From Myroides odoratus DSM 2801 (lineage in GTDB: Bacteria; Bacteroidota; Bacteroidia; Flavobacteriales; Flavobacteriaceae), in contig NZ_CM001437.1 of assembly GCF_000243275.1 (NCBI RefSeq), positions 1,008,019 to 1,072,018 of the forward strand: a stretch of 64,000 bases of DNA, given 5' to 3'. A program made the position numbers and the translations under genes. Of the stretch, positions 25,767 through 39,068 are shown piece after piece. Below the pieces are notes generated by a model. The model was not told the DNA's origin, ran no database searches, and saw nothing but the letters and a program-made list of their open reading frames with translations. Position 1 is the stretch's first letter. Each line of letters begins with the position of its first letter.

Positions 25767-28619
25767 ATGAAAACAAATGCATTTGCTTTAAGACACATTG
25801 GCCCTCGTGCTGAGGACATGGCACAAATGTTTAAAACTGTGAAAGTTGATAACATTGAACAATTAATCGATGAGACTTTTCCAACTTCAATTCGCTTAAA
25901 ACAAGATTTAGATCTTGCTCCTGCAATGACGGAATATGAGTATTTATCTTATATTCAGAACTTAGGCAACAAAAACAAAATTTTTCGTTCTTATATTGGA
26001 TTAGGATACAACGAATCTGTTAGCCCTGCTCCTATTATTCGCAACGTATTTGAAAACGCTGGTTGGTACACAGCTTATACTCCGTACCAAGCTGAGATTG
26101 CACAAGGTCGTTTAGAAGCTTTATTAAATTTCCAAACTACAGTAATTGAATTAGCTGGAATGGAAATTGCCAATGCATCTTTATTAGATGAAGGTACTGC
26201 AGCAGCAGAAGCAATGATGTTATTATACGATGTTCGTACAAGAGATCAAAAGAAAAACAACGCGTTAAAATTCTTCGTTTCTGAAGAAATTTTACCTCAA
26301 ACACTTTCAGTTTTACAAACTCGTTCGGTTCCTTTCGAAATCGAATTAGTTGTAGGAGATCACCAAACGTTTGATTTCTCAGAAGATTTCTTTGGAGCAA
26401 TCTTACAATACCCAGGTAAATACGGTCAAGTATATGATTATGCTGACTTCATCAATACAGCTAAGACAAAAGATATTAAAGTTGCCGTTGCAGCAGATAT
26501 CTTGTCCTTAGTAACATTAACTTCTCCAGGAGAAATGGGAGCTGACGTCGTAGTTGGAACAACACAACGTTTTGGTATTCCATTAGGATTTGGAGGACCT
26601 CACGCTGGTTTCTTCACGACAAAAGAAGAGTACAAACGCAGTATGCCAGGTCGTATCATTGGAGTTTCTAAAGATGCAGACGGAAACAGAGCGTTGCGTA
26701 TGGCTTTACAAACACGTGAGCAACACATCAAACGCGAGAAAGCAACGTCAAATATCTGTACAGCTCAAGTATTATTGGCTGTTATGGCTAGTTTCTACGC
26801 TGTTTACCACGGACCAAATGGTCTTCGTTTTATTGCAAACCAAGTACATGCAAAAGCAAATACAGTAGCAGAAAACTTAGCTAAATTAGGTATCGAGCAA
26901 ACAAATACAGCTTACTTCGACACCATCGTTGTAAAAGCTGATGCAGCTAAAGTGAAACCAATCGCTGAAGCTAATAAAGTAAACTTCTTCTATATTGATG
27001 CCAATACGATTTCAATCTCTTTAAACGAGACAGTAAATGTAAATGATATCAATACGATTATTGCTATTTTCGCTCAAGCAGTAGGAAAAGAAGCCTTTAC
27101 CATTACTGCATTAAATGAAGAAGCAGTAAACTACCCTGCTAAATTAAAACGTACTTCTAAATTCTTAGAGCATGACGTGTTTAATAGCTACCACTCTGAA
27201 ACAGAATTAATGCGTTACATCAAGCGTTTAGAGCGCAAAGATTTAGCGTTAAATCAATCGATGATTTCTTTAGGTTCTTGTACCATGAAGTTGAATGCGG
27301 CAGCAGAAATGCTTCCTTTAAGCAACGGTCAATGGAACAACATCCACCCTTTTGCTCCATTAGATCAAGCACAAGGTTACATTGAAATGTTGAAAGACTT
27401 AGAACATAAATTAAATGTTATTACTGGATTTGCTGGAACAACTTTACAGCCAAACTCAGGTGCTCAAGGAGAATATGCTGGATTAATGGCTATTCGTGCT
27501 TACCACCATTCAAGAGGGGATTTCCAAAGAACTATCGCGTTAATCCCTGCTTCTGCTCACGGAACAAATCCTGCTTCTGCAGCAATGGCTGGAATGAAAG
27601 TGGTAGTTACAAAAACTACACCTGAAGGAAATATCGATGTGGCTGACTTGAAAGAAAAAGCAGAATTACACAAAGACAACCTTTCTTGTTTAATGGTTAC
27701 TTATCCTTCTACTCACGGAGTATATGAATCAGCTATCATGGAAATTACACAAATTATCCACGATAACGGAGGACAAGTATATATGGATGGTGCAAATATG
27801 AACGCTCAAGTTGGTTTCACTAACCCTGCTTCTATTGGTGCTGACGTATGTCACTTAAACTTACATAAAACATTTGCTATTCCTCACGGTGGTGGTGGAC
27901 CTGGAGTTGGACCAATCTGTGTGGCTGAGCATTTAGTAGAGTTTTTACCTTCTAACCCATTAGTACAAGTAGGTGGTAAAAATGCAATTACCTCTATTTC
28001 ATCTGCTCCTTACGGTTCGGCTTTAGTGTGTCTAATCTCTTACGGTTACATCTCTATGTTAGGAACGGAAGGATTGAAAAAAGTTACACAAACAGCGATC
28101 CTGAACGCAAACTATATGAAAGCTAGATTAGAAGAACACTACGCTATTTTATATACAGGTGAAAAAGGACGTGCTGCACACGAAATGATTGTTGACGTTC
28201 GTGAATTCAAAGAAAAAGGAATTGAAGTAACAGATATCGCTAAACGTTTAATCGATTATGGTTTCCACGCACCAACCGTTTCTTTCCCTGTTGCAGGAAC
28301 TTTAATGATTGAACCTACAGAAAGCGAAAGCTTATCAGAGATTGATCGTTTCTGTGATGCGATGATCGCGATTCGCCAAGAAATTGAAAACGCAACGATT
28401 GAGAACCCAGTAAACGAATTAAAGAATGCTCCGCATACTTTAGCTCTATTAACTGCGGATAATTGGGATTTACCTTACTCAAGACAAAAAGCAGCTTATC
28501 CATTAGCATACGTAGCTGAGAATAAATTCTGGCCTACAGTACGTCGTATTGACGATGCTTACGGAGATAGAAACTTAGTTTGTTCTTGTGCTCCAATCGA
28601 AGCTTACCTTGAAAATTAA
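25767..28619 (+). CDS. gcvP: aminomethyl-transferring glycine dehydrogenase (glycine cleavage P protein)
   Basis: 950 aa full-length single-chain P protein that decarboxylates glycine and passes the aminomethyl group to the lipoyl H protein. The start at MKTNAFALRHIGPRAEDM agrees with the family N-terminus; the frame extends 15 codons upstream, over the promoter. The first half carries FGGPHAGFF, the second the PLP lysine motif HLNLHKTFAIPHGGGGPG. The H and T genes are not in the window, which is normal in flavobacteria. It is monocistronic, with a strong terminator. Confidence 0.97.
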   Translation: MKTNAFALRHIGPRAEDMAQMFKTVKVDNIEQLIDETFPTSIRLKQDLDLAPAMTEYEYLSYIQNLGNKNKIFRSYIGLGYNESVSPAPIIRNVFENAGWYTAYTPYQAEIAQGRLEALLNFQTTVIELAGMEIANASLLDEGTAAAEAMMLLYDVRTRDQKKNNALKFFVSEEILPQTLSVLQTRSVPFEIELVVGDHQTFDFSEDFFGAILQYPGKYGQVYDYADFINTAKTKDIKVAVAADILSLVTLTSPGEMGADVVVGTTQRFGIPLGFGGPHAGFFTTKEEYKRSMPGRIIGVSKDADGNRALRMALQTREQHIKREKATSNICTAQVLLAVMASFYAVYHGPNGLRFIANQVHAKANTVAENLAKLGIEQTNTAYFDTIVVKADAAKVKPIAEANKVNFFYIDANTISISLNETVNVNDINTIIAIFAQAVGKEAFTITALNEEAVNYPAKLKRTSKFLEHDVFNSYHSETELMRYIKRLERKDLALNQSMISLGSCTMKLNAAAEMLPLSNGQWNNIHPFAPLDQAQGYIEMLKDLEHKLNVITGFAGTTLQPNSGAQGEYAGLMAIRAYHHSRGDFQRTIALIPASAHGTNPASAAMAGMKVVVTKTTPEGNIDVADLKEKAELHKDNLSCLMVTYPSTHGVYESAIMEITQIIHDNGGQVYMDGANMNAQVGFTNPASIGADVCHLNLHKTFAIPHGGGGPGVGPICVAEHLVEFLPSNPLVQVGGKNAITSISSAPYGSALVCLISYGYISMLGTEGLKKVTQTAILNANYMKARLEEHYAILYTGEKGRAAHEMIVDVREFKEKGIEVTDIAKRLIDYGFHAPTVSFPVAGTLMIEPTESESLSEIDRFCDAMIAIRQEIENATIENPVNELKNAPHTLALLTADNWDLPYSRQKAAYPLAYVAENKFWPTVRRIDDAYGDRNLVCSCAPIEAYLEN

Positions 28620-28637
28620 TTCATTGTAGATAGAATC

Positions 28638-28671
28638 AAAAACGCCATCGACTTCGATGGCGTTTTTTTTT
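28638..28671. terminator. bidirectional terminator between gcvP and the TonB receptor
   Basis: A 13-bp stem (AAAAACGCCATCG and complement) with a 4-nt loop gives a T-tract of nine on the plus strand and of five on the minus strand. It closes both gcvP and the RiPP operon. Confidence 0.88.
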
Positions 28672-28702
28672 CACGTGATGCCGTGATGCAATACAAGTAG
28701 GT

Positions 28703-30634
28703 TTAAAATTTAAATTGTAAACCAAAATAGAATACCCTTTGTTGAAATTTTTGAAAATAAACGCGGGTATAATCTGCTGAATAATAAGGTTTCTGTTCGT
28801 TTTTTCGATTCAGTACATTGATAATTGAACCATATACAACCACATAAGAACGCCCAATAGGGAAAATCTTATTTATTGTAAAATCCACTCTAAAATAAGT
28901 ATTCAAATGGGCAGAAGTATTTGGTTCTACAGTAGGGATAAATACCGCTCGTTCTGTATCCCAAATCGTATTTTTGATAGGCGTGTAAGAACTACCAGGA
29001 TGTGTCGTCCCTACTAGAGAGGCAGTGAAATACTTCGGATGATTATACGTCCCTTGCATTTTAAAAAAATACAGCCAACGTTTATTTGCTTCCTTGTTGA
29101 TGTAATCGGTTTGGTGCAACAAGGTGTTGGATGCTATCAAAGAGAAATAACGTCCAAAATAATGCGTGTAAGACCACTCTGTTCCCACTAAGTCTCGCCG
29201 AGCAAGTTCTTCCAAAGCAGATAGTGATAAATATCCCCTATCCTTTTTATAATACACCGCACCCGTTATTGTTGTTTGTGTATTTTCACTGTAATAATCT
29301 AAAGCAATTTGTTTGCTGTTATATAGGCGTACATCGGGATTAAAATAATTCGGTGTGGTGTAACTATTGTAATTTCCCATGCCGAAAATAAAGCGATGTT
29401 GAGGGTTCATCTTGTAAAAAGCGGCTACTTGTGTACTTAAAAAGTCAAATGAACGACTTGGTGCAAAAATGCTTTTTCGCATGCCCAACGAAAGACCTAA
29501 GTGATTGGCGAACTTATATTCTGTATAGCCATACGCTTCCGTATAGGTAAATTGCTTCGTTGTTTGATCGTGAACCACGGGGTCTTGTGGACGCATGGCA
29601 TAAAAAAACAGAGGCAGTTGTTCTCGACTCTCATAGTTTGTGGTCGAAAAATCTATCCCATATTGTACCTGCCAACCATAAGCTAATGTATACTTGTGGG
29701 ATGCAGTCAAAAAATATTGGGTATACTTCGACTTAGCATTTATCGTTGCAAAAGTATAGGCTGTCACACTTTGATCGACTAACGCTGCCAACTTAACGAC
29801 AGAATGTGCCTTTGTATATTCCAAAGATTGAATCGTAAAAAAGCGCTTTTGCTTAGCAACAGCTTCTCCCGTATATTGCAACCGATAGTTGTGGGATTCA
29901 TACCCTTCATCAATATAATAACTGTAACTAGTAAAATTTGTATGCTTTGTTAGATTTGTTCGAAAATGCAGTCCCATATCGTTCGATTCAAATCGATGTA
30001 AATCCGTCAAGCTTTTGCGATTAATCGTTTGCAACGCATCTGAAAATTGAAGGTTAGCATAATACTGAACAAAAGCAGTTTGATCAAGTTTTTTATGTAC
30101 TTGTAATCCAACGTTCGATAGTCCTAAAGCCACTTGATACGAATCCTCCTCTAGTTGTTTTGTTGTTTCTATTTCAACGATTCCCGCTGTAGCATTCCCG
30201 TAATTCAATGGAGGGTTACTAGCATATACATATTGTTTATCTAGCAGTTCTGCATTGAAAATAGAAAAATTACCTAGACCATTATCTTGGGTATTCCGCA
30301 CGGGATTCACAACAGGTACCCCATTCAGGTATACCCTAGACTGATCAGCTAATCCTCCTCGAAGCACAGGATTTGCTGTTTCTGAGCTAGAGGTAGACAT
30401 CGGCAAAAGACTAATTGCTTTTAGTGGATCTCCACTAGAAGCAGGATTAAAATAAATATCCAGTCGATTCATCTTATTACTTGAAAATTTTTCTGCGATG
30501 GGATCTTGCCTCACAATGACAATTTCATGTAGGGCTTGCCTTGTAGAATCCAGTTCTCTTTCTTGCGCACAGGCTACTGTAGAGACAACGCTAAAGCTGA
30601 GAACGAATCCTAAACTTTTAAAACGAAAAAGCAT
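28703..30634 (-). CDS. TonB-dependent receptor at the end of the RiPP operon
   Basis: 643 aa outer-membrane receptor: signal peptide (STVACAQ), a plug (VLRGGLADQSRVYLNGVPVV, then NATAGIVEIETT) and a beta barrel ending in phenylalanine (FGLQFKF). It lacks the STN and carboxypeptidase-like domains of SusC proteins and is about half their length. It overlaps the M50 protease gene by 17 nt, so it belongs to the azol(in)e-peptide operon. No SusD partner is present. It may import the modified peptide (for example with a bound metal) or serve in its recognition; this is inference from position. Confidence 0.9.
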   Translation of the reverse strand: MLFRFKSLGFVLSFSVVSTVACAQERELDSTRQALHEIVIVRQDPIAEKFSSNKMNRLDIYFNPASSGDPLKAISLLPMSTSSSETANPVLRGGLADQSRVYLNGVPVVNPVRNTQDNGLGNFSIFNAELLDKQYVYASNPPLNYGNATAGIVEIETTKQLEEDSYQVALGLSNVGLQVHKKLDQTAFVQYYANLQFSDALQTINRKSLTDLHRFESNDMGLHFRTNLTKHTNFTSYSYYIDEGYESHNYRLQYTGEAVAKQKRFFTIQSLEYTKAHSVVKLAALVDQSVTAYTFATINAKSKYTQYFLTASHKYTLAYGWQVQYGIDFSTTNYESREQLPLFFYAMRPQDPVVHDQTTKQFTYTEAYGYTEYKFANHLGLSLGMRKSIFAPSRSFDFLSTQVAAFYKMNPQHRFIFGMGNYNSYTTPNYFNPDVRLYNSKQIALDYYSENTQTTITGAVYYKKDRGYLSLSALEELARRDLVGTEWSYTHYFGRYFSLIASNTLLHQTDYINKEANKRWLYFFKMQGTYNHPKYFTASLVGTTHPGSSYTPIKNTIWDTERAVFIPTVEPNTSAHLNTYFRVDFTINKIFPIGRSYVVVYGSIINVLNRKNEQKPYYSADYTRVYFQKFQQRVFYFGLQFKF

Positions 30635-31679
30635 ACATTACTAACACAAACAAAGGAATAGCAAAACAAGACCAAGCTATAATGACCGCTAGGCAACTGA
30701 ATAAAAAGTATAAACACAACAACAATCGCTTGGCTGTTATTCTCTCTTTTAAAAAGCGTTTAAAAACGAGGTAAGACTCCTGCCAAAGGCTTTCTTTTCC
30801 CATTAGTTCATTGAATATAAAATAACCATCCGTATAAGGCAGAAAGATATTTACATTAAACAGCGATCGTATACCGATGGAAATGAGCATAGTATAACCT
30901 ATAAAGGCAAGAGTGGGATGAGTATCTTTCCAAACCACCGTTCCCACAAGAATCAAGAGCACTGTTATACCATCAAAAATAGCTCCTCCAGCATAAGATA
31001 CCAAGCGATGTTTCTTCTTTGATATTTGTTGAATATACAACTTAGCATAAAATACAGGAATGATATACAACAGTAATCCAACCCCAAAGATGGAACATTT
31101 ACCACCGTATACCTTATAAAATAAATAGTGCCCCCATTCATGTATAACAATGCTAACAAATGCTCCCATATAGATAAAAACAATCAATTGTTTGAACGAA
31201 TAGGGTACCAGATATAACGTTGCTTTATAATTTTCAGCAAATGCTATAGGATGCAGATTTAAATAAAATAACGCGCCTAAAGTCAACCCAATGACCAGTA
31301 TAAACAACGCCAAAAGCACCTCCTTTTTTTCCAAGAAACGCTCCAATATCGTACACGTAAAATCCAATGAAAATAATTCAAGTATGGCTTTTCGTCTCTT
31401 CCATCGCAATTGAACAATGTATTGGCTCTTTGCCCCTACTTCCTGAACAATTATTTTCTTTTGTTCAGCCAAATCCAAGAGCAGATCCAATTGCTGCTCT
31501 CCAATTTCTACTTGTGTACTAAAAAAAGCAAGAACAGCCTCCTTGTTTAGCACCCGACAATAATAGGAGATAATATCATATTCCAGTTTAGACAGTTTCA
31601 CCAAATAATCAGCATCTTTAACTTTTAAAAGTAAATCATCTTGCTGTTCTGCTATACAAATGATGTGATTTAACTTCAT
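30618..31679 (-). CDS. M50-type membrane zinc protease with N-terminal PqqD-like domain
   Basis: 353 aa. The soluble N-terminus (1-95) has a winged-helix, PqqD/RRE-like pattern ending LLLDLAEQKKIIVQE. Several membrane segments follow, with the site-2-protease motif HEWGH (H180, E181, H184) and the third ligand D284 in PYTDGYF. It overlaps the SagB gene by 4 nt and the TonB receptor by 17 nt. In a RiPP operon such a protein is the best candidate for leader removal at the membrane. The PqqD-like part could hold the leader. This role is inferred. Confidence 0.82.
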   Translation of the reverse strand: MKLNHIICIAEQQDDLLLKVKDADYLVKLSKLEYDIISYYCRVLNKEAVLAFFSTQVEIGEQQLDLLLDLAEQKKIIVQEVGAKSQYIVQLRWKRRKAILELFSLDFTCTILERFLEKKEVLLALFILVIGLTLGALFYLNLHPIAFAENYKATLYLVPYSFKQLIVFIYMGAFVSIVIHEWGHYLFYKVYGGKCSIFGVGLLLYIIPVFYAKLYIQQISKKKHRLVSYAGGAIFDGITVLLILVGTVVWKDTHPTLAFIGYTMLISIGIRSLFNVNIFLPYTDGYFIFNELMGKESLWQESYLVFKRFLKERITAKRLLLCLYFLFSCLAVIIAWSCFAIPLFVLVMYAFSF

Positions 31680-32542
31680 ACTTCTGATTTAAGTTGGTGC
31701 CCAATAGCCATACAAAATAAGGGTTGATGTAGCGTATTTTTCAATGCTAACAACTGGTGCATTTCTTTATTTAAAAACCCTCCAAACGCACAACATCCCA
31801 GATCTAAAGCAGCAGCGGCTAAGTAAGCGGCATGTATGCAAGCTCCAACCTCAACAAGAGATAAAGCCACACCAAAATCCTGATATTTAAAGGAATGCTT
31901 GTTTAAAACTGAAGTAAAAACCACAAAGGCAGAAGCTCGTTCAAAATCAATAGAAGCAGCTGGTGTTTTTAGGATAATCTCATAAAAATTCGTCCAATCT
32001 GCTGAGGTATGAAAAGCAGTAATCAACTCTAAATTAAACTGAAATACATTATATCGATACACACCTAAGGGGAGTTCCTTGATGCGATGATTAATAAAAT
32101 AAAGTTCTGTAGGATACAACGAACCACCAGAGGCTATATTCCTCTTCTTTCGCATGAGTTTTGTTCCATCCAAATTCAATTCTTCTTGTCCCGTTAGCGT
32201 ATAACACAACTGAAAAAACGCACTGATATCAGCCAAAGAAAGTGGGACCTCAGTGAATTTCCGAACACTCTTTCTTTGTTGATTCAATTGATTTAAACTC
32301 CTAGCCCAATCAGAAGAATGCAAATTTGTATCCAAGGCATACGCGGTACAAAACCCCATTTCATACTGAGATTCAACTATTTTTTTTACCAATTTCGGGT
32401 TCTTATTGATATAGGCGATTCGCTTGAATTTATCCAAAGACTCCCTGTCGTATTTTTTAAACTTTATATGCTCTAAAAAATCCAAAGTTCCTTCACTTAA
32501 TCGATGCTCCGATAATACATTTAATAGCTCTTCTTGTGTCAT
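31676..32542 (-). CDS. SagB-type FMN azoline dehydrogenase (ThcOx family)
   Basis: 288 aa nitroreductase-fold protein with the SagB/McbC hallmark ASGGSLYPTELYF (137-149) after an arginine-rich FMN loop (QQRKSVRKF, 89-97). A helical extension of about 75 residues precedes the fold. Such enzymes oxidise thiazolines and oxazolines to thiazoles and oxazoles using FMN. It overlaps both neighbours by 4 nt, which points to tight translational coupling. Its presence predicts aromatic azoles in the product. Confidence 0.9.
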   Translation of the reverse strand: MTQEELLNVLSEHRLSEGTLDFLEHIKFKKYDRESLDKFKRIAYINKNPKLVKKIVESQYEMGFCTAYALDTNLHSSDWARSLNQLNQQRKSVRKFTEVPLSLADISAFFQLCYTLTGQEELNLDGTKLMRKKRNIASGGSLYPTELYFINHRIKELPLGVYRYNVFQFNLELITAFHTSADWTNFYEIILKTPAASIDFERASAFVVFTSVLNKHSFKYQDFGVALSLVEVGACIHAAYLAAAALDLGCCAFGGFLNKEMHQLLALKNTLHQPLFCMAIGHQLKSEV

Positions 32543-33330
32543 TGGTGTGATAGATTAAGTTGGTATTTTTTTCGAAGTTCATCTAGTTTCGTTTGCTTAC
32601 CTTCTTGTTCATAGTATTGAAGCAACAACTGATAAAGTTGCTTTCGCCCCCAAGTAGGTGCATAATCCTCAGATGTTAAAGCATCCGGGCAAGCCAATCC
32701 CTCTACAGCGTAGGTTTCTACTTTTTGCATGCCTCCAAACATTTTAGGTGTATGAAAATTATGAGACGCTAATACAAGATAAGCCCTGAGGTTCTCTTTA
32801 TTGAGTGCCAATGCATGTTTAGCAGCAGTTTCTGCGGCTGTCGATACCTTTGCCAATTGCGTAATATTGACAAATTGAATGGAAAAAGAAGTAACTTGAG
32901 CCAAAAGCGCATAATATTCCGAATTATCATATTCTTTTTTGTGCATCACTGCTAGGGATTGAGCAACAGCCTCCGCTGCTTTTGTATCATCAGCTGAAAT
33001 TGTTTTATAAAAAACGGCCGTGTAATAAAGTAAATACGCTTTCCAGTACATAGCATAAAAATCAGTACGCACCTCGGCTATATTTCTTAATTCCTCTTCT
33101 ATACCCTGCATATTTTTATCTTTAAATAGCTGTTCAACAATACGATCTATTCGAACTTGATAGGTTTGTTTTACAGCAGTATGAGGTGTTGTTCCGCCTA
33201 AGTATTCTATAGCTATATGATTGGGAATAAGTTCGCTATTCTCTTTGTTTTTGGAAGTATAACTACAACATACTTGGCTACAAACCATACTTAATACTAC
33301 ACTAATTTTTACGAGTTGTTTTATTTTCAT
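32539..33330 (-). CDS. exported helical-repeat protein of the RiPP operon
   Basis: 263 aa with a hydrophobic signal (VKISVVLSMVCSQVCC); the cysteines suggest a lipoprotein but the lipobox is imperfect. The rest is alpha-helical with TPR-like repeats (TAAETAAKHALALNKENLRA, then YLVLASHNFH; QLYQLLLQYYEQEGKQTKLD). It sits between the YcaO and SagB genes (11-nt gap and 4-nt overlap), which is unusual because it is exported while its neighbours are cytoplasmic. It may be an immunity, receptor-partner or maturation factor. No close family is recognised. Confidence 0.72.
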   Translation of the reverse strand: MKIKQLVKISVVLSMVCSQVCCSYTSKNKENSELIPNHIAIEYLGGTTPHTAVKQTYQVRIDRIVEQLFKDKNMQGIEEELRNIAEVRTDFYAMYWKAYLLYYTAVFYKTISADDTKAAEAVAQSLAVMHKKEYDNSEYYALLAQVTSFSIQFVNITQLAKVSTAAETAAKHALALNKENLRAYLVLASHNFHTPKMFGGMQKVETYAVEGLACPDALTSEDYAPTWGRKQLYQLLLQYYEQEGKQTKLDELRKKYQLNLSHQ

Positions 33331-33341
33331 TGTCTTATTTT

Positions 33342-34622
33342 TTAAGGGAAAGGATGCGGAAAAGAAGTGAATAGATTTTCTTGTGAATCAAATAATCCCA
33401 AATAAGGATAGTTAAAATCCCCAGTCAACAAACTAAGTTGGGGTGTTACCACTTTAATCACTTCAAACCCTAATTGCAACGTATCTTTAGTATTCAAATG
33501 GGCATAATACACCTCATTTATTCCTTTTTTCATCAATTCATGGGCGGTGAAATTCAGTACATGATGCGGGTGATACTCCACCCAAGTTGTCGTATAATTT
33601 ACTTCACTTCGTACATCTTGAAGAATCGGCACCTGTTGTACCAAATTTGGATAAAGATTGTACAAGGCATAGTGTTTCTTAAAGGAATCAATCTCCGAAA
33701 AATCAAAAGTCTCTATTTTTTCTTGCGTCAGTACTTCTTTATATTGCTCACAGGCAAAAGCAGTATATTCAATGCCTTGATAGGCTTCGATTGCTGCTTT
33801 CACTAAGGCTTCTTTTTGGTTGAATCGCGTAGCGGATCCTACACTTTGGTACACTTTATTTCCCTTTTTAAACAAAATAAAAACCACAAACGTTGGGCAT
33901 AAAGCATATTCACTCAAGTCATATGTTGTAATTTTCACGCGGTTCGTTGCAAACAATTGCTGAATCCGTTGGTCTGTCTTAAACTTTTCAAGAATAAAAA
34001 TTTGTGCATATTTCTTATGTTGGCGGCGATGTTGAAAGTACCAAAACTTAGCAAAAGCATCGCGTTCAATACACTCTAATAACCCTCCTTGAATGGCTTG
34101 ATCAACCTTCGTATGAGACGCAGTACCCGTAGATGTATTCTTATGGAACAATCCATCTCCTTTAATATTTTCAACATTAACCATGAAAAAAGGCAACCAA
34201 ATCTCTTCTTTTGTTATATAGTTCCATCCTTTCATCCAATGCGTCAGACTATTTTCTTGTAAACGATGCAGTTTAAACTTTGGATCGCAATATTGTGCTT
34301 CAGTAAAATAGTTAATTCGATGCGGAGGATAACAATGGCGTGTATTTTTTAATTCCTTATACGAACCATAGCACAATTGATCTTTCAGCTGAAAACTCGA
34401 AGCATATCGTTCCATATACTCTCCCAAGGCTGCCAAATCTGCTTCTTGTTCACTAAAAGCAATACCTCCGCCGTGAATACTTGTCCTATTGTTTTGCATC
34501 ACATATAAGTGATCCGAAAAACAGACTCTTTCACGTAAATCTGTAGGTAGATTTAAATTTCGAGGAACCTTTAATTTAGGCTTATTAATAAAACCAAATG
34601 CTCCATGTAACGTACGCATCAT
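33342..34622 (-). CDS. YcaO cyclodehydratase (TOMM, SagD-like)
   Basis: 426 aa YcaO protein. ATP-binding elements are present: EYMERYA (68-74) and the region STGTASHTKVDQAIQGGLLE followed by CIERDAF (ExxER at 184-188). It ends FPHPFP, which gives the C-terminal PxPxP motif that marks azoline-forming YcaO enzymes. With the E1-like partner it would use ATP to cyclise Cys/Ser of the precursor to thiazolines/oxazolines. It overlaps the E1-like gene by 4 nt. It is the core enzyme of the cluster. Confidence 0.93.
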   Translation of the reverse strand: MMRTLHGAFGFINKPKLKVPRNLNLPTDLRERVCFSDHLYVMQNNRTSIHGGGIAFSEQEADLAALGEYMERYASSFQLKDQLCYGSYKELKNTRHCYPPHRINYFTEAQYCDPKFKLHRLQENSLTHWMKGWNYITKEEIWLPFFMVNVENIKGDGLFHKNTSTGTASHTKVDQAIQGGLLECIERDAFAKFWYFQHRRQHKKYAQIFILEKFKTDQRIQQLFATNRVKITTYDLSEYALCPTFVVFILFKKGNKVYQSVGSATRFNQKEALVKAAIEAYQGIEYTAFACEQYKEVLTQEKIETFDFSEIDSFKKHYALYNLYPNLVQQVPILQDVRSEVNYTTTWVEYHPHHVLNFTAHELMKKGINEVYYAHLNTKDTLQLGFEVIKVVTPQLSLLTGDFNYPYLGLFDSQENLFTSFPHPFP

Positions 34623-35497
34623 AGTGGATTATAAATAGAAAGATTCGCACAAAACCCACAAGAAGGAGAACTTAACACAGTAAAATACTGGTTGTGATAC
34701 CGATTAAAATCAATAAATACCGCCTTATTATACAGCGATTTATCGCGTTGAACCATAATTTTATACAGCTCATTGTAGAGCAAAGATGCATTAATTGTAA
34801 ATGCGCCTATTTCTAGTACAGAAAGGGCGTGATCCTTGAGTCTTTCTATATCCCAAAGGTGGTCGATGAGCATATCTGGAGCAGTAGAATTAAATATTTT
34901 TCTAGTTTCAATACAGTTGAGACAAACCGTTCCTTTATGACTGTTCATCAAAGGCCCTAATAATAAACCATTCTCATATAACTCAACAAATAAAAAATCA
35001 GAAGATGTCGTTTGCTGCCAAGCACTTATATGTTGAATCGTAGTAGTATTATAGAAATAAGGTCCAACAAGAAGCGTCAATACAACGGGATATTCCGAAG
35101 ATTGAAACACAGGCTGTTCCTCCATCGATAAATTATAAATAGTTGCGACCTTGATTTGTTCAGGTAAACCCGTCATAAATGCATGCAACAAAGTTAAATC
35201 AGTTCCAAACTCACCAATAATATCCAAATACAAAGGGGTAGGTACTTCCCTATCGGGTACTATAAATTGGTGTAGCGTCAACCAAGAAAGCAGTTCTTCC
35301 ACTCTATTTTGCTGTAAAATAGAGGCATCAGAAAAGAACAAATCTGGTGGAATAGGCAATTGTTCTTGTACTAACGCAAGAACAGCAATCATATCAGAAG
35401 CATCTTTACCTGTAATCTTCTTGATGGAATTAGAATCAGATAATAAGATATACTCCTTGGGATTCGTTTGAATAATTTTCCATTTTTTCTTTTTCAT
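34619..35497 (-). CDS. E1-like TOMM cyclodehydratase partner (leader-peptide-binding, Ocin-ThiF-like)
   Basis: 292 aa. The first 80 residues form a PqqD/RRE-like winged helix (IQTNPKEYILLSDSN, then LLSWLTLHQFIV) that binds the leader. The middle is a reduced ThiF/E1 fold with no ATP-binding glycine motif. Two CxxC pairs (CLNC at 192-195, CGFC at 280-283) supply the structural zinc site of this family. It is separated from YcaO as an independent protein, as in SagC/SagD. The start is 63 nt after the precursor stop, beyond a hairpin. Confidence 0.85.
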   Translation of the reverse strand: MKKKKWKIIQTNPKEYILLSDSNSIKKITGKDASDMIAVLALVQEQLPIPPDLFFSDASILQQNRVEELLSWLTLHQFIVPDREVPTPLYLDIIGEFGTDLTLLHAFMTGLPEQIKVATIYNLSMEEQPVFQSSEYPVVLTLLVGPYFYNTTTIQHISAWQQTTSSDFLFVELYENGLLLGPLMNSHKGTVCLNCIETRKIFNSTAPDMLIDHLWDIERLKDHALSVLEIGAFTINASLLYNELYKIMVQRDKSLYNKAVFIDFNRYHNQYFTVLSSPSCGFCANLSIYNPL

Positions 35498-35510
35498 AAA
35501 AACATAGGTT

Positions 35511-35549
35511 AAAAACTAGTAATATCAATCGGTTTCAATTGATATTACT
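35511..35549 (-). terminator. partial terminator/processing hairpin between precursor and biosynthetic operon
   Basis: A 12-bp perfect stem (AGTAATATCAAT and complement) with an 8-nt loop is followed on the minus strand by AGTTTTT. Its place between a RiPP precursor and its enzymes is typical of a leaky terminator that yields excess precursor message. Confidence 0.75.
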
Positions 35550-35560
35550 AATTTGAGTTA

Positions 35561-35680
35561 CTAACAGCAACAGCAACAACTGCAACAAGCGTAGACATCC
35601 ATTTCTTGAGACATTGGGATACCTAAAGAGGATACTTCTTTCGTTTCAATTGTTTCGATTGTAAGTTCTAATTGTTTCAT
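35561..35680 (-). CDS. TOMM precursor peptide with polycysteine core
   Basis: 39 codons, ATG to TAG. The leader begins MKQLELTIETIETKEVSSLG, is Glu/Thr/Ile-rich and acidic, and is followed by IPMSQEMDVYA. The core is CCSCCCCC at residues 32-39 (seven Cys, one Ser), ending directly at the stop. The composition resembles SagA-like cytolysin precursors but the core is shorter and nearly pure cysteine. It is the first gene of the cluster, 63 nt upstream of the leader-binding protein, with the same strand. If all residues cyclise, up to seven thiazoles and one oxazole would form. It is far too Cys-rich to be a chance open frame next to YcaO and SagB. Confidence 0.93.
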   Translation of the reverse strand: MKQLELTIETIETKEVSSLGIPMSQEMDVYACCSCCCCC

Positions 35681-36204
35681 GTGTACTAACGTTTAATTGA
35701 TTACATACAAGCCTAGTTTTAAGACATTACTTGTTAGCCTTGGTCTGTTTCTTGATCAAGAGATTAGTTAAAGATTAACCTTTAAATTGTTGCTTTTTAC
35801 GATGAACCATCAGTTGTAAACGTCCCAAAAACAGGACAAAAACAACTAATTGGCTTTACGAAATATTAGATTTTTTTGTGTATGATTATACCAAAGATTG
35901 CTCCGATTGGGAGATAGAAGAACTACAATATGCAAGATATACATCCGCAACTTGAGTAGTTGAGCAAGTCAATTTGATATAGAATAGAAAACTGCCTATT
36001 GACAGTAATCGCTATGTATATTGGTAAAAATGGGAGAATTTAATTGCATTTACCCTAGCGATAAAATAAAAGTAAGCAAAAAAAAGATACATTCCCCTAG
36101 TAATCCTTTGAAATACTTGATATTATAACGAAAAAAGATAAAATAAATTGATTTTTGAATGTAATCTTGGGAAGAATAATAAATATGTTATGAACTAAGT
36201 ATCC
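35681..36204. other. leader/regulatory region upstream of the RiPP precursor
   Basis: No supported gene. It must hold the promoter of the RiPP operon: the nearest -7 candidate on the minus strand is TAGGCTTG at about 35708-35715, one base off consensus. A 10-bp palindrome CTTGATCAAG lies at 35751-35760. A short stopless plus-strand frame at about 35806-35955 has no ATG (see rejected list). Confidence 0.4.
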
Positions 36205-36378
36205 TTACCCATTCGACTCATCTCTAAATCGATATTTTTTAACCAGAAAATATGCTCCACTTAAAATTAAGAGTGCATAACAAACTAAATCCGCATGATT
36301 ATAACTAAAAAAATCAAACAAATTCAATACAAGTCCCATGGTGGTTATGAGCACCAACCCTTTCACTAATTTATCCAT
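36205..36378 (-). CDS. small membrane protein (57 aa)
   Basis: ATG to TAA, 57 residues with two hydrophobic segments (LVKGLVLITTMGLVLNLFDF and LVCYALLILSGAYFLV) and a basic C-terminus (KKYRFRDE). Its ATG overlaps the stop of the short frame upstream (ATGGATAA), a coupling pattern seen in real operons. Function unknown. It is too short for most gene callers. Confidence 0.6.
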   Translation of the reverse strand: MDKLVKGLVLITTMGLVLNLFDFFSYNHADLVCYALLILSGAYFLVKKYRFRDESNG

Positions 36379-36484
36379 TTTTATAAAATTTGAAATTAAT
36401 TTCCCCTTTATCTGAACTAACTTCTACTGCAAACATCGATCTAAATGCCGCTTGTTCAATGACTAAAAAACATTCAATTAATTT
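36371..36484 (-). pseudogene. short coding-like fragment upstream of the small membrane protein
   Basis: A stop-to-stop minus-strand frame reads ...LVIEQAAFRSMFAVEVSSDK then GEINFKFYKNG and a stop. The residue pattern looks like protein, but no ATG lies before the internal methionine and the upstream sequence is full of stops. It may be the tail of a lost gene or a small protein with a non-ATG start. Confidence 0.35.
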
Positions 36485-36852
36485 TTAATCTTATATCAAC
36501 AAAAAACATTCCACTTTTAAAAACTGTTATCAAAACCAACCCCTTGACTAATACAGTTTTACAAAAATTAAAACAAATACACTAAACGGAATACAACACA
36601 AATCAGAAAAACGTTACGATTAAATCAAAATAACCAATAAAATAAAACTATTTTAATTCAAATTTTAAAATACAGCATAGGAGAAAAAAATTCAACACCC
36701 TTCTTTTTTTCCTTTTAATTGAAAAAAAGGAAGATAAATTGATACACAAACTGCACAAATTGATATAGGCTTCGTAAGGAGCTGCTAATTCTATTCTTAC
36801 TTCTTAATTTTATTTGATTTTTGTAATTTTATACCCTGAAATAAAACGTCCT
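36485..36852. other. AT-rich intergenic region upstream of the AraC regulator
   Basis: Very A/T-rich. Nothing beyond the likely promoter of the AraC gene can be supported; no exact TAnnTTTG box at a good distance is present. Confidence 0.4.
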
Positions 36853-37776
36853 ATGAGTAAAGATTTAGAAACCATTGCCGATTATTACAAAGAGAGATCT
36901 TCCTCTTCGCTCTCTCAAAATTATGCGTTTAGTATCAACGAATACAAGACAGGGACATCGCATTTTAATATCAATATGCGCAAATATTGTAGTTTTACAA
37001 CGCCTTATAATCGCCGTGATTTTTATAAAGTAGGGTTAATTATTGGTCGAGGAGAATTGCATTATGGCTCGCATTCTATTACTATTGACCGACCTGCTTT
37101 GTTTTTACCTTGTCCAACAACGCCATACTCTTGGACGTGTATTGAAAAAAAACAAGAAGGGTACTTTTGCTTATTCAATTACGAATTTTTTACCGAAAAC
37201 AGAAATCTAGAATCCTTTAAAAAAACGTCTTTATTCAAAGAATGGGGAAAGCCACTCATCTTTTTAACTCCCGCTCAATTGGATATTGCTCATACCTATT
37301 TTCAGCAAATGTACACCATGGCACAGTCGGATTACCCTTTAAAATACGAGGTAATTCGAAATCTATTGGCCTTGTTACTTCATCAAGCCTTACAGCTTAA
37401 AGTAGAGGATATTTCTCTCGATGAACAAAATGCATCCATGCGTCTATTTCGCTTATTTGACCAATTATTAAATAAACAATTCCCTTTAGACTCACCTGCT
37501 TATCCACTGGTCTTACGCCGTCCTATTGATTATGCTAATAAACTCAATGTACATGTGAATCACTTGAATTCCTCCATCAAATCTGCTACTGGAAAAACGA
37601 CTTCTCAACATATTACAGATCGCATTTTATTAGAAGCGAAAAATTTACTCATCAACACGGATTGGGATATTGCACAAGTGGGCTATACCCTCGGCTTTGA
37701 TCAACCGTCTCATTTTACACATTTCTTTAAAAAGCACCTGGAACAAACTCCTTTACAATTTAGAAACCACAATTAA
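36853..37776 (+). CDS. AraC family transcriptional regulator
   Basis: 307 aa. The N-terminal half (about 30-160) is a sensor with cupin-like strands (VGLIIGRGELHYGSHSITID). The C-terminal 100 residues hold two HTH motifs, the second reading DIAQVGYTLGFDQPSHFTHF followed by FKKHLEQTPLQFR, the classic AraC signature. The start chosen is ATG at MSKDLETIADYY; the frame runs upstream only to a TTG. It precedes an MFS pump by 95 nt and may control it. Confidence 0.92.
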   Translation: MSKDLETIADYYKERSSSSLSQNYAFSINEYKTGTSHFNINMRKYCSFTTPYNRRDFYKVGLIIGRGELHYGSHSITIDRPALFLPCPTTPYSWTCIEKKQEGYFCLFNYEFFTENRNLESFKKTSLFKEWGKPLIFLTPAQLDIAHTYFQQMYTMAQSDYPLKYEVIRNLLALLLHQALQLKVEDISLDEQNASMRLFRLFDQLLNKQFPLDSPAYPLVLRRPIDYANKLNVHVNHLNSSIKSATGKTTSQHITDRILLEAKNLLINTDWDIAQVGYTLGFDQPSHFTHFFKKHLEQTPLQFRNHN

Positions 37777-37838
37777 AATTCTTTGATTTATACAATTATA
37801 CCTTTGTCTTTTTTAAGATAGCTGCTGCGTTGTTCTTT

Positions 37839-37846
37839 TACTTTTG
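37839..37846 (+). promoter_or_regulatory. -7 box (TACTTTTG) of the MFS transporter
   Basis: Exact TAnnTTTG match 25 nt before the ATG at 37872. A second exact match, TACCTTTG, lies at 37799-37806. Both lie upstream of this ATG, and the first lies inside the longer frame, which supports the later start. Confidence 0.5.
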
Positions 37847-37871
37847 TGTCCATAAAACAACAATTCACTTT

Positions 37872-39068
37872 ATGCTTAGAGAAGCTACAAACCAAAGAAA
37901 AAAGCTAGCCACTATTCTGGCTTTTAGTTCAATTCCCCTATCTGGATTTGTAACGGACATCTACTTACCTTCCTTTCCTTCTATGGCGAATGATTTAGCC
38001 ATTACAGAGAAGGAAGTACAACTTACTTTAACCTGTTATTTATTGAGTTATGGTATTTCACAGCTCTTCGTTGGTAGTGTTCTCGATAGTATTGGACGTT
38101 ATAAGCCCCGTTTAATTGCGCTGCTTTTTATTGCTTTATCCAGTACCTTAATTGCACTTACCAATGATATTTTCTTGATTTGCCTGTTGCGCATTGTGCA
38201 AGGAATTGCTATTTCGATTTTAGTTGTGGCAACCCGAGCCATTTTCATGGACATTTATGAAGAAAAACAACGCATTCATTACCTGAGTTATTTCACCGTC
38301 GTTTGGTCCTGTGGTCCAATCCTCGCTCCATTCTTAGGAGGATACCTCGATGCTATGTTTTCTTGGCATGCGAATTTTTATTTTCTTTCAATTTACGCTG
38401 TAGTACTCTTCATTTTAGATCTAGTCATCAGTGGTGAAAGTATTCCAGAAAAGAAAAAATTCAATTTAAGCCAGACTCTTCAAGTGTATAAAACCATGTT
38501 GAGCAACCAAAACTTTATCATGGGAATCTTCATTCTTGGGATGAGTTACTCCATCGTGATGATTTTCAATATTGCAGGTCCCTTTTTAATTGAAAACACC
38601 TTCAATCAAAATTCCATTGTCATTGGCTACTGTACCTTACTCTTGGGATTTTCTTGGATGTTAGGAGGACTTATTGGCAAAAGAAGGATGCACCTCTCAT
38701 TTGAGCAACGCACCACACAACCCATCTATATTCAGTTGATTTTGTCTCTTGTTTTATTAGGAGTGAGCTATTATGTTGAAAACTTATCCCTTTTAATGGT
38801 TGGTTTATTTTTCATCCACATTTGTTCAGGTACGTTATTCAACAATTTTTTCACCACTACAATGTTGGCCTTTCCCAATAATTCAGGAACAGCAGGAGGA
38901 TTGATGGGCGGATTGACCTATGTCATTACCTCTCTAACTAGCTTCATCATTTCATCGTCTGGCGCTATTAATACTCAATTTCAATTGAGTACGCGTTATA
39001 CAGCACTGATTATTTGTCTTTTATTCTTGATTTTATACATCGTACAACTCAATAAAAAAACACACTAG
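37872..39068 (+). CDS. MFS multidrug transporter, Bcr/CflA type
   Basis: 398 aa with twelve predicted membrane helices. The first helix pair reads FVTDIYLPSFPSMA, typical of Bcr/CflA drug:proton antiporters, and the loop 2-3 motif SVLDSIGRYKPR is the MFS motif A. It would export drugs or metabolites. The start is the ATG of MLREATNQRKK, not the upstream TTG at 37830. The AraC gene just upstream is a likely regulator. Confidence 0.92.
   Translation: MLREATNQRKKLATILAFSSIPLSGFVTDIYLPSFPSMANDLAITEKEVQLTLTCYLLSYGISQLFVGSVLDSIGRYKPRLIALLFIALSSTLIALTNDIFLICLLRIVQGIAISILVVATRAIFMDIYEEKQRIHYLSYFTVVWSCGPILAPFLGGYLDAMFSWHANFYFLSIYAVVLFILDLVISGESIPEKKKFNLSQTLQVYKTMLSNQNFIMGIFILGMSYSIVMIFNIAGPFLIENTFNQNSIVIGYCTLLLGFSWMLGGLIGKRRMHLSFEQRTTQPIYIQLILSLVLLGVSYYVENLSLLMVGLFFIHICSGTLFNNFFTTTMLAFPNNSGTAGGLMGGLTYVITSLTSFIISSSGAINTQFQLSTRYTALIICLLFLILYIVQLNKKTH

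Follow-up and report, generated by a model that had tools for sequence, protein, structure and literature searches.

A YcaO/SagB operon in Myroides odoratus with a nearly all-cysteine precursor core, a HusA-like protein and a TonB-dependent receptor

Our analysis of a 64,000-nucleotide stretch of the Myroides odoratus DSM 2801 genome (contig NZ_CM001437.1; hereafter the window) indicates that an operon on the minus strand, spanning 35680-28638, probably makes a thiazole-rich peptide and encodes a HusA-like protein and a TonB-dependent receptor as a pair that may handle it. The best reading is a Bacteroidota variant of the streptolysin S-like thiazole peptides with a carrier-receptor pair, to which we give a probability of about 0.6. 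The order of the operon is precursor, C, YcaO, HusA-like, SagB, M50-type protease, TonB-dependent receptor and terminator-like hairpin (Table 1). From the C gene onward, each gene either overlaps the next or is separated from it by 11 bases, and the operon is presumably co-transcribed. Less expected in this operon are the M50-type protease, the TonB-dependent receptor and the HusA-like protein, none of which the preliminary description discussed below mentions.

Table 1. Features of the operon and its upstream region, in window positions
Feature	Position	Strand	Basis
Conserved block upstream of precursor	35699..35735	-	Alignment of five Myroides-type sequences
Precursor peptide gene	35561..35680	-	30-aa acidic leader and core ACCSCCCCC at stop; putative leader/core border
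Hairpin of 19 bp with T-run between precursor and biosynthetic genes	35513..35554	-	Fold -20.3 kcal/mol, z -7.8
C protein, predicted leader-binding E1-like scaffold	34619..35497	-	TIGR03882-like, 31.8 bits, below cut-off 36.9
D protein, predicted YcaO cyclodehydratase, C-terminal PHPFP	33342..34622	-	PF02624, E 4e-48
HusA-like TPR protein, 263 aa	32539..33330	-	Homology to HusA
B protein, predicted SagB-type dehydrogenase with Lys-Tyr pair	31676..32542	-	TIGR03605, 119.3 bits, over cut-off 78.4
Predicted M50-type membrane zinc protease (HEWGH)	30618..31679	-	PF02163; window member below cut-off
Predicted TonB-dependent outer-membrane receptor	28703..30634	-	Plug domain
Terminator-like hairpin, 13 pairs, probable operon end	28638..28667	-	Terminator scan

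The precursor gene is real, and its core is under purifying selection. A preliminary description of this DNA had proposed a 39-codon gene with an acidic leader and a C-terminal ACCSCCCCC, and translation bears it out. The 120 bases encode 39 amino acids (MKQLELTIETIETKEVSSLGIPMSQEMDVYACCSCCCCC*), the first 30 residues include six acidic and two basic ones, and the core, with seven Cys and one Ser, runs to the stop codon. The gene order given there was also correct: the precursor gene lies directly upstream of a leader-binding-like gene and YcaO, with SagB two genes further, all on the minus strand. The window has 795 ORFs that reach 20 aa; at least five Cys among the last nine residues were found in one of these and in none of 151,529 ORFs from 150 simulated windows of equal dinucleotide make-up, and a chance ORF was therefore ruled out. 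A search of the 4.30-Mb genome for the core DNA pattern, allowing up to two mismatches, gave one exact occurrence and one other that differs at two bases. The nine core residues are common to the window, Myroides odoratus XSfan (L012) and three loci of Myroides spp. (L013, L014 and L015). Six of the nine core codon columns vary among these five Myroides-type sequences and every change is synonymous, which gives 26 synonymous and 0 non-synonymous pairwise differences, compared with 58 and 20 in the first 17 leader codons, where L014 was shifted for its two extra codons. An identical core with synonymous codon changes only is what one expects of a peptide that is translated and under selection. 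The window precursor had no family match at E 0.1, TIGR03602 included. Among 5.8 billion proteins searched with a profile of the small gene, two entries matched at E <= 1, and the same gene is visible in the DNA of the five Myroides-type loci and L016, so it seems to be poorly listed in protein collections. In all probability the peptide is the substrate from which a YcaO/SagB pathway of the azole-forming (TOMM/LAP) kind starts.

Biosynthesis of an azole peptide is well supported by homology, and all testable features of a TOMM/LAP system are present, namely YcaO, C, SagB and an adjacent precursor with a leader and a Cys/Ser/Thr core. The profile of the C protein matches TruD, MusD, LynD and MccB, and its AlphaFold model (mean pLDDT 79.2) matches LynD, chains of the McbBCD complex, TruD and MccB. 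Sequence and model both point to the E1-like scaffold of TOMM/LAP systems, and leader binding is predicted. The acidic motifs and the PxPxP C-terminus of YcaO proteins have known roles. In the 38 sequences compared, E68, E71, R72, E183, E186, R187, E279, Q282, P422 and P426 are invariant, P424 is conserved at 90% or more, and the PHPFP end is conserved; by these motifs the protein qualifies as a TOMM/LAP D protein. Its match to TIGR03604 (179.2 bits) is below the cut-off of 219.25, and its family profile matches MusD, TruD, LynD and McbD. It is 87% identical to the YcaO of L012, and a search of the genome at E 0.001 found no second YcaO of this kind. The Lys-Tyr pair of SagB-type dehydrogenases is catalytic. 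This pair in the window SagB could be aligned with CyaGox, and the protein is predicted to be the SagB/McbC-type dehydrogenase of a TOMM/LAP system. PF02163 was found in 15/15 members of the M50-type family at E <= 0.01, the HExxH motif and a distal Asp are invariant in 15 sequences, and the protein is the probable leader protease.

The same gene set, from precursor and enzymes to HusA and TonB receptor, recurs in other Bacteroidota, some lineages of which come from gut samples. With the YcaO as query against 5.8 billion proteins, 65 relatives were obtained at E <= 0.001, with names including Myroides, Pedobacter, Flavobacterium branchiophilum, Chryseobacterium and Elizabethkingia, and a species-genome scan with a 38-row YcaO profile gave 28 loci. 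YcaO was found in 8/398 genomes sampled from the genus, 9/397 from the family, 3/395 from the order and 16/395 from the phylum, in samples that overlap, with few candidates scored per genome and with remote YcaO proteins and the window's own genome counted. A further sample gave 2/100. We examined 22 Bacteroidota loci (the window, L012-L020, L035, L058-L065, L075, L076 and L099). Seventeen genomes with remoter YcaO matches (best E 2e-17; five in the family sample, 11 in the phylum sample and one in the genus sample) were left out, and L068-L071, whose match positions equal those of L012, L013, L015 and L016, were taken as the same records.

The preliminary description had made its proposal depend on related short Cys-rich peptides in sister clusters; such relatives are present, and the proposal was not refuted on this point. 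A short Cys-rich precursor ORF was at the expected place in 17/22 loci. Contigs end too near to show it in L017, L075 and L099, and none was found in L060 and L062. The precursor leader is conserved across genera, and the precursor sits before the C gene in the sister clusters. SagB is present in 21 of the 22 loci and missing in L016, where the contig ends. It is split in two ORFs in L014 (12139-13010) and L017 (2865-3702), by a sequencing error or a break in the gene. A HusA-like gene was found in 19/22 loci and a TonB receptor gene in 16/22; the contigs of L016 and L075 end soon after the HusA-like gene. No HusA-like or TonB gene was found in 17 non-Bacteroidota or unplaced loci, among which L027 had no closed ORF matching the models.

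The cores are of several types: ACCSCCCCC-stop in Myroides, MCCCTCCC-stop in F. branchiophilum, PGACCCTCCCCF with a tail in Bacteroidales, and AAAGCCCSCCCTCCF. Precursors of the Bacteroides type (L020:8739-9074, P0069-P0073, P0075 and P0077) carry a tail of roughly 55 to 75 residues after the Cys core, in which they differ from the Myroides type. A protein search with the Bacteroidales-type precursor alignment gave 26 relatives at E <= 1, of which 23 have a Cys-run core, and P0074, P0076 and P0078 lack all or most of it. The precursors of relatives were scanned 16 times, covering 15 distinct sequences, and TIGR03602, the streptolysin S family, matched in 11 of these scans, with E values between 6e-7 and 1.2e-3 and 18.7-29.2 bits, all below the 35-bit cut-off. 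It did not match P0067 (Myroides type), P0068/L016 (same sequence), P0094 or L035. PF27786.1 was precomputed for four of the 26 relatives, and three of these gave no match when re-scanned. Matches below cut-off were obtained for the L035 precursor with TIGR04135 and TIGR03892, two other Cys-rich RiPP models, and for the L063 and L064 precursors with the listeriolysin S and BorA models.

Judged by gene order, transport and protease genes vary among these loci. The Myroides, Elizabethkingia and Bacteroidales loci have a long M50-type protein and an operon without ABC genes; among the ORFs of the window operon (35680 to 28703) we found no ABC transporter gene. ABC genes accompany a long M50-type protein in L035 and L075 and a short one in L059 and L063-L065. 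In L060 the ABC genes adjoin the cluster; neither L060 nor L058 has an M50 match. An MFS transporter next to the window operon (37830-39068) was dropped as exporter because it is absent from the L013 stretch, in which the cluster is complete.

The hairpin between the precursor and the biosynthetic genes occurs at the same place in 5/5 Myroides-type sequences, at -17.7 to -21.7 kcal/mol and with differing stem bases. It was not among the sites of the terminator scan of the window. It is probably an attenuator or a partial terminator, and an attenuator would fit the production of more precursor than enzyme. The hairpin at 28638..28667 is the probable end of the operon; it comes from a scan that gave three sites against a shuffle mean of 4.9 and is by itself not above chance. 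The conserved block upstream of the precursor is a possible promoter or 5' untranslated element. The consensus of the Bacteroidota-type promoter box is TAnnTTTG. The 400 bases upstream in the window contain no such box, and in L012 and L013 one lies near -290. A scan for sigma-70 type promoters (19 sites, shuffle mean 34) was not used. A structured RNA family was ruled out, as no Rfam match was found over 28500-37000. The operon has a G+C content of 0.35-0.38, like its flanks, blastn of the precursor found no match in plasmids or phages, and no YcaO relatives were found in viral contigs with six query patterns. Together these results ruled out a mobile or plasmid origin.

The HusA-like protein belongs by sequence and fold homology to the family of Porphyromonas gingivalis HusA. 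It matches HusA at E 2.5e-13 and has the same TPR-like fold, the motifs yTP..FGG and P.WG are common to both, and relatives of the HusA-like protein adjoin a TonB receptor. From a signal judged by eye, it is probably secreted or a lipoprotein. Unlike HusA, it is embedded in a peptide-modification operon and falls in its own clade among the rows compared. When the HusA groove was mapped by hand from the alignment, the position of Ser119 was Ser and, in sequences of the Myroides type, that of Tyr164 was His. The MbnB/HvfB models gave weak matches to one or two of the HusA-like proteins, which we took as chance. In the receptor family the Plug domain was found in 16/16 members at E <= 0.01, the window receptor scoring 20.1 bits, below the cut-off of 23.9, and a beta-barrel model matched 1/16. 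The family profile matched SusC-type chains in its N-terminal part alone, no further than position 112, and its positions 434-661 matched an iron-transport receptor (E 0.0083).

HusA-TonB pairs are also found without peptide clusters. HusA-like genes occur in 43/277 Bacteroidota genomes at E <= 1e-8, the window's own genome counted, and we took the stretches round 14 of the better matches. One of them, L099, carries two HusA-like genes in a YcaO/SagB cluster. In each of the remaining 13, a same-family TonB receptor lies next door, and the profiles found no YcaO/SagB within the stretch. In the receptor tree, one branch with support 100 separated 16/16 cluster receptors and that of L091 from 13 other standalone receptors, and the split was the same with three long rows removed. 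In the HusA tree, 18/20 cluster rows and L091 group together with support 99, and the two L099 copies fall with the standalone rows. These trees carry warnings for long branches and for uneven sequence composition, and P. gingivalis HusA and its receptor are not among the rows. Therefore, the HusA-TonB pair is a general Bacteroidota transport module, one lineage of which is tied to peptide clusters. Pairwise distances correlate with those of YcaO at 0.97 for SagB, 0.87 for HusA and 0.77 for TonB (120 pairs), and at 0.97 for C and 0.96 for M50 (91 pairs each), so that HusA and TonB follow YcaO less closely than SagB, C and M50 do. L091 (G657:C11:105000-124500) has a cluster-type HusA-TonB pair, and genome G657 (98% complete) gave no YcaO match at E <= 1. 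The pair is a possible orphan receiver; its nesting inside the cluster clade was not significant (AU p 0.241).

We propose the following scheme for the operon, in which the chemical steps are assigned from the homologies of the enzymes encoded. The C protein would bind the acidic leader, and YcaO together with the C protein would cyclodehydrate the core ACCSCCCCC at its seven Cys and perhaps also at its Ser. SagB would then oxidise the azolines to azoles, and the M50-type membrane protease would cut off the leader. The expected product is a flat, very hydrophobic and nearly continuous polythiazole. The calculated mass is 4320.83 Da for the unmodified full-length precursor, 4160.62 Da for the same peptide with eight azoles and 736.93 Da for the core alone with eight azoles. 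HusA, a relative of the HusA-like protein, binds flat porphyrins in a hydrophobic groove. In our proposal the HusA-like protein would bind the polythiazole, or a complex that contains it, outside the inner membrane, and the TonB-dependent receptor of the same operon would pass it across the outer membrane. By analogy with streptolysin S, the most likely role of the product would be membrane activity against other cells, the HusA/TonB pair serving as carrier, for re-uptake or for self-protection. Streptolysin S is said to depend on carrier molecules for its activity, and a carrier encoded in the operon would fit such a dependence. Should the HusA-like protein bind the product, this would help to explain how insoluble polyazoles are moved and kept in solution, and what cargo the many standalone HusA-TonB pairs have.

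The main rival to binding of the product by HusA is haem import after lysis, which we regard as a minority possibility. A streptolysin S-like lysin would free haem from other cells, and HusA/TonB would import the haem as in P. gingivalis, leaving the peptide untouched. Strong homology to HusA, the binding of haem and porphyrins reported for HusA (PMC6173696), the many standalone HusA-TonB pairs and the streptolysin S-like cores of the relatives agree with this. However, most cluster-type pairs fall in clades separate from those of the sampled standalone pairs, which suggests a special ligand. In addition, Tyr164 of the groove is His in Myroides-type sequences, and the core is shorter than in the definition of streptolysin S-like peptides (PMC4603692).

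A further view, which we likewise regard as a minority possibility, is that Bacteroidota polythiazoles are taken back up as metallophore, porphyrin carrier or signal, and that non-producers with an orphan pair eavesdrop. The porphyrin-like groove of the HusA-type protein would grip the polyazole, alone, with metal or with porphyrin, and the dedicated TonB receptor would import it. In its siderophore-like form, a secreted peptide takes up metal through thiazole nitrogens and remaining thiols, or acts as a messenger, and is re-imported by HusA/TonB. This form appears unlikely to us. One TonB receptor lineage does go with the biosynthetic genes, the Myroides operon lacks ABC genes, and G657, with a cluster-type pair and no YcaO match, looks as a non-producing receiver should. 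But the nesting of the orphan in the cluster clade is not significant, the cores of relatives resemble lysins, and we know of no polythiazole metal ligand of this kind.

It is likewise rather improbable that the TonB-related and HusA-like proteins serve outward passage or self-immunity only. TonB-related proteins have been suggested to export graspetides in Bacteroidetes (PMC8939145). In the Myroides operon we recognised no second outer-membrane protein besides the TonB receptor, which would agree with such a role. However, TonB-dependent receptors with a plug work, to our knowledge, inward. That the small ORF is spurious, or encodes a metallothionein-like Cys tail that holds metal unprocessed by YcaO, would agree with its shortness and lack of family matches, but is very improbable given a core under purifying selection, a leader conserved across genera and a location that, in sister clusters too, is ahead of the C gene.

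The proposed carrier-receptor variant of the streptolysin S-like peptides can be compared with known systems. The streptolysin S-like TOMM cytolysins (SagA-B-C-D; TIGR03602, TIGR03603-5) have, as here, C, D and B proteins as separate enzymes and a short precursor whose core is an unbroken run of heterocyclizable residues, and the cores of the relatives match TIGR03602 weakly. Cox 2015 (PMC4603692) defines such clusters, in the text available, by a Gly followed by at least 10 heterocyclizable residues, ABC transporters and a CaaX-like protease. The window has Ala and eight such residues, no ABC transporters in the operon, an M50-type protein as the only recognised protease, and a precursor that does not reach the 35-bit cut-off of TIGR03602. 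For these reasons we do not file the cluster in this group, although its peptide may, by analogy, work like these cytolysins. Molloy et al. 2015 (PMC4513790) report much of the haemolytic activity to be retained with 11 core residues, note that Borrelia has precursors that are truncated by nature, and describe such clusters from Firmicutes, Spirochaetes and Actinobacteria. In comparison, the window cluster adds a Bacteroidota host, a HusA-like protein and a TonB receptor. The Bacteroidota sister clusters would extend the range of streptolysin S-like systems, and the window core is a minimal one, seven Cys and one Ser, with a carrier-receptor pair.

The preliminary description also considered a nearly continuous polythiazole unusual. 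It is unusual, but contiguous polythiazoles already have a precedent in Lap-1 of Enterococcus caccae, an extremely hydrophobic peptide (PMC9576775). Since eight thiazol(in)es were formed from the nine Cys in Lap-1, the chemistry proposed here is plausible by analogy. Lap-1 resembles the window precursor in its Cys-rich core (PMC9576775), and the faecalisins do so in the Cys repeat of their cores (PMC4603692). They differ in coming from Bacillota; the faecalisins have a Gly linker and ABC transporters (PMC4603692), and the available text of both papers mentions neither HusA nor TonB with them. Bacteroidetes graspetide clusters (PMC8939145) resemble the window in their TonB-related and TPR genes and, in some, SagB-like enzymes, but they use ATP-grasp chemistry where the window has YcaO and a Cys-run core.

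A coupling of HusA/TonB to YcaO or azole peptides was not found in open-licence papers, and no title or abstract on Bacteroidota streptolysin S-like clusters was found among open-licence PMC papers. Words beginning with Bacteroid or Myroides are absent from the main texts of PMC4603692 and PMC4513790. A BAGEL4 survey of 1,136 Bacteroidales genomes lists in its Table 1 ten areas with a ThioE-type dehydrogenase and YcaO (PMC10352776). Some of these may be clusters of this kind, so that a number of relatives may already have been counted but left undescribed; that survey nowhere uses the words TOMM, streptolysin or TonB.

Several side observations were made. Two Bacteroidota YcaO clusters without HusA have Cys/Thr-rich cores (L061:9469-9777, SCCCTCTPACCC; L076:3941-4129, TTTCMGCTCTSCCC) and probably belong to different azole peptide types. 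Near a standalone HusA-TonB pair, with no YcaO in the stretch, a 68-aa ORF (L098:9907-10113) ends in WCTCTCCWCNFEIEIDL; its genome, G704, also has the L099 cluster. The Myroides odoratus DSM 2801 genome has a second HusA-like and TonB receptor pair (L079, G000:C1:1419500-1427500), with neighbours that, judged from sequence starts only, are LytTR-type regulator- and sensor-like genes. In L063 and L064 (genomes G132 and G357), six Cys-rich ORFs each lie upstream of one enzyme set, several of them as identical copies, with the core AAAGCCCSCCC[ST]CCF.
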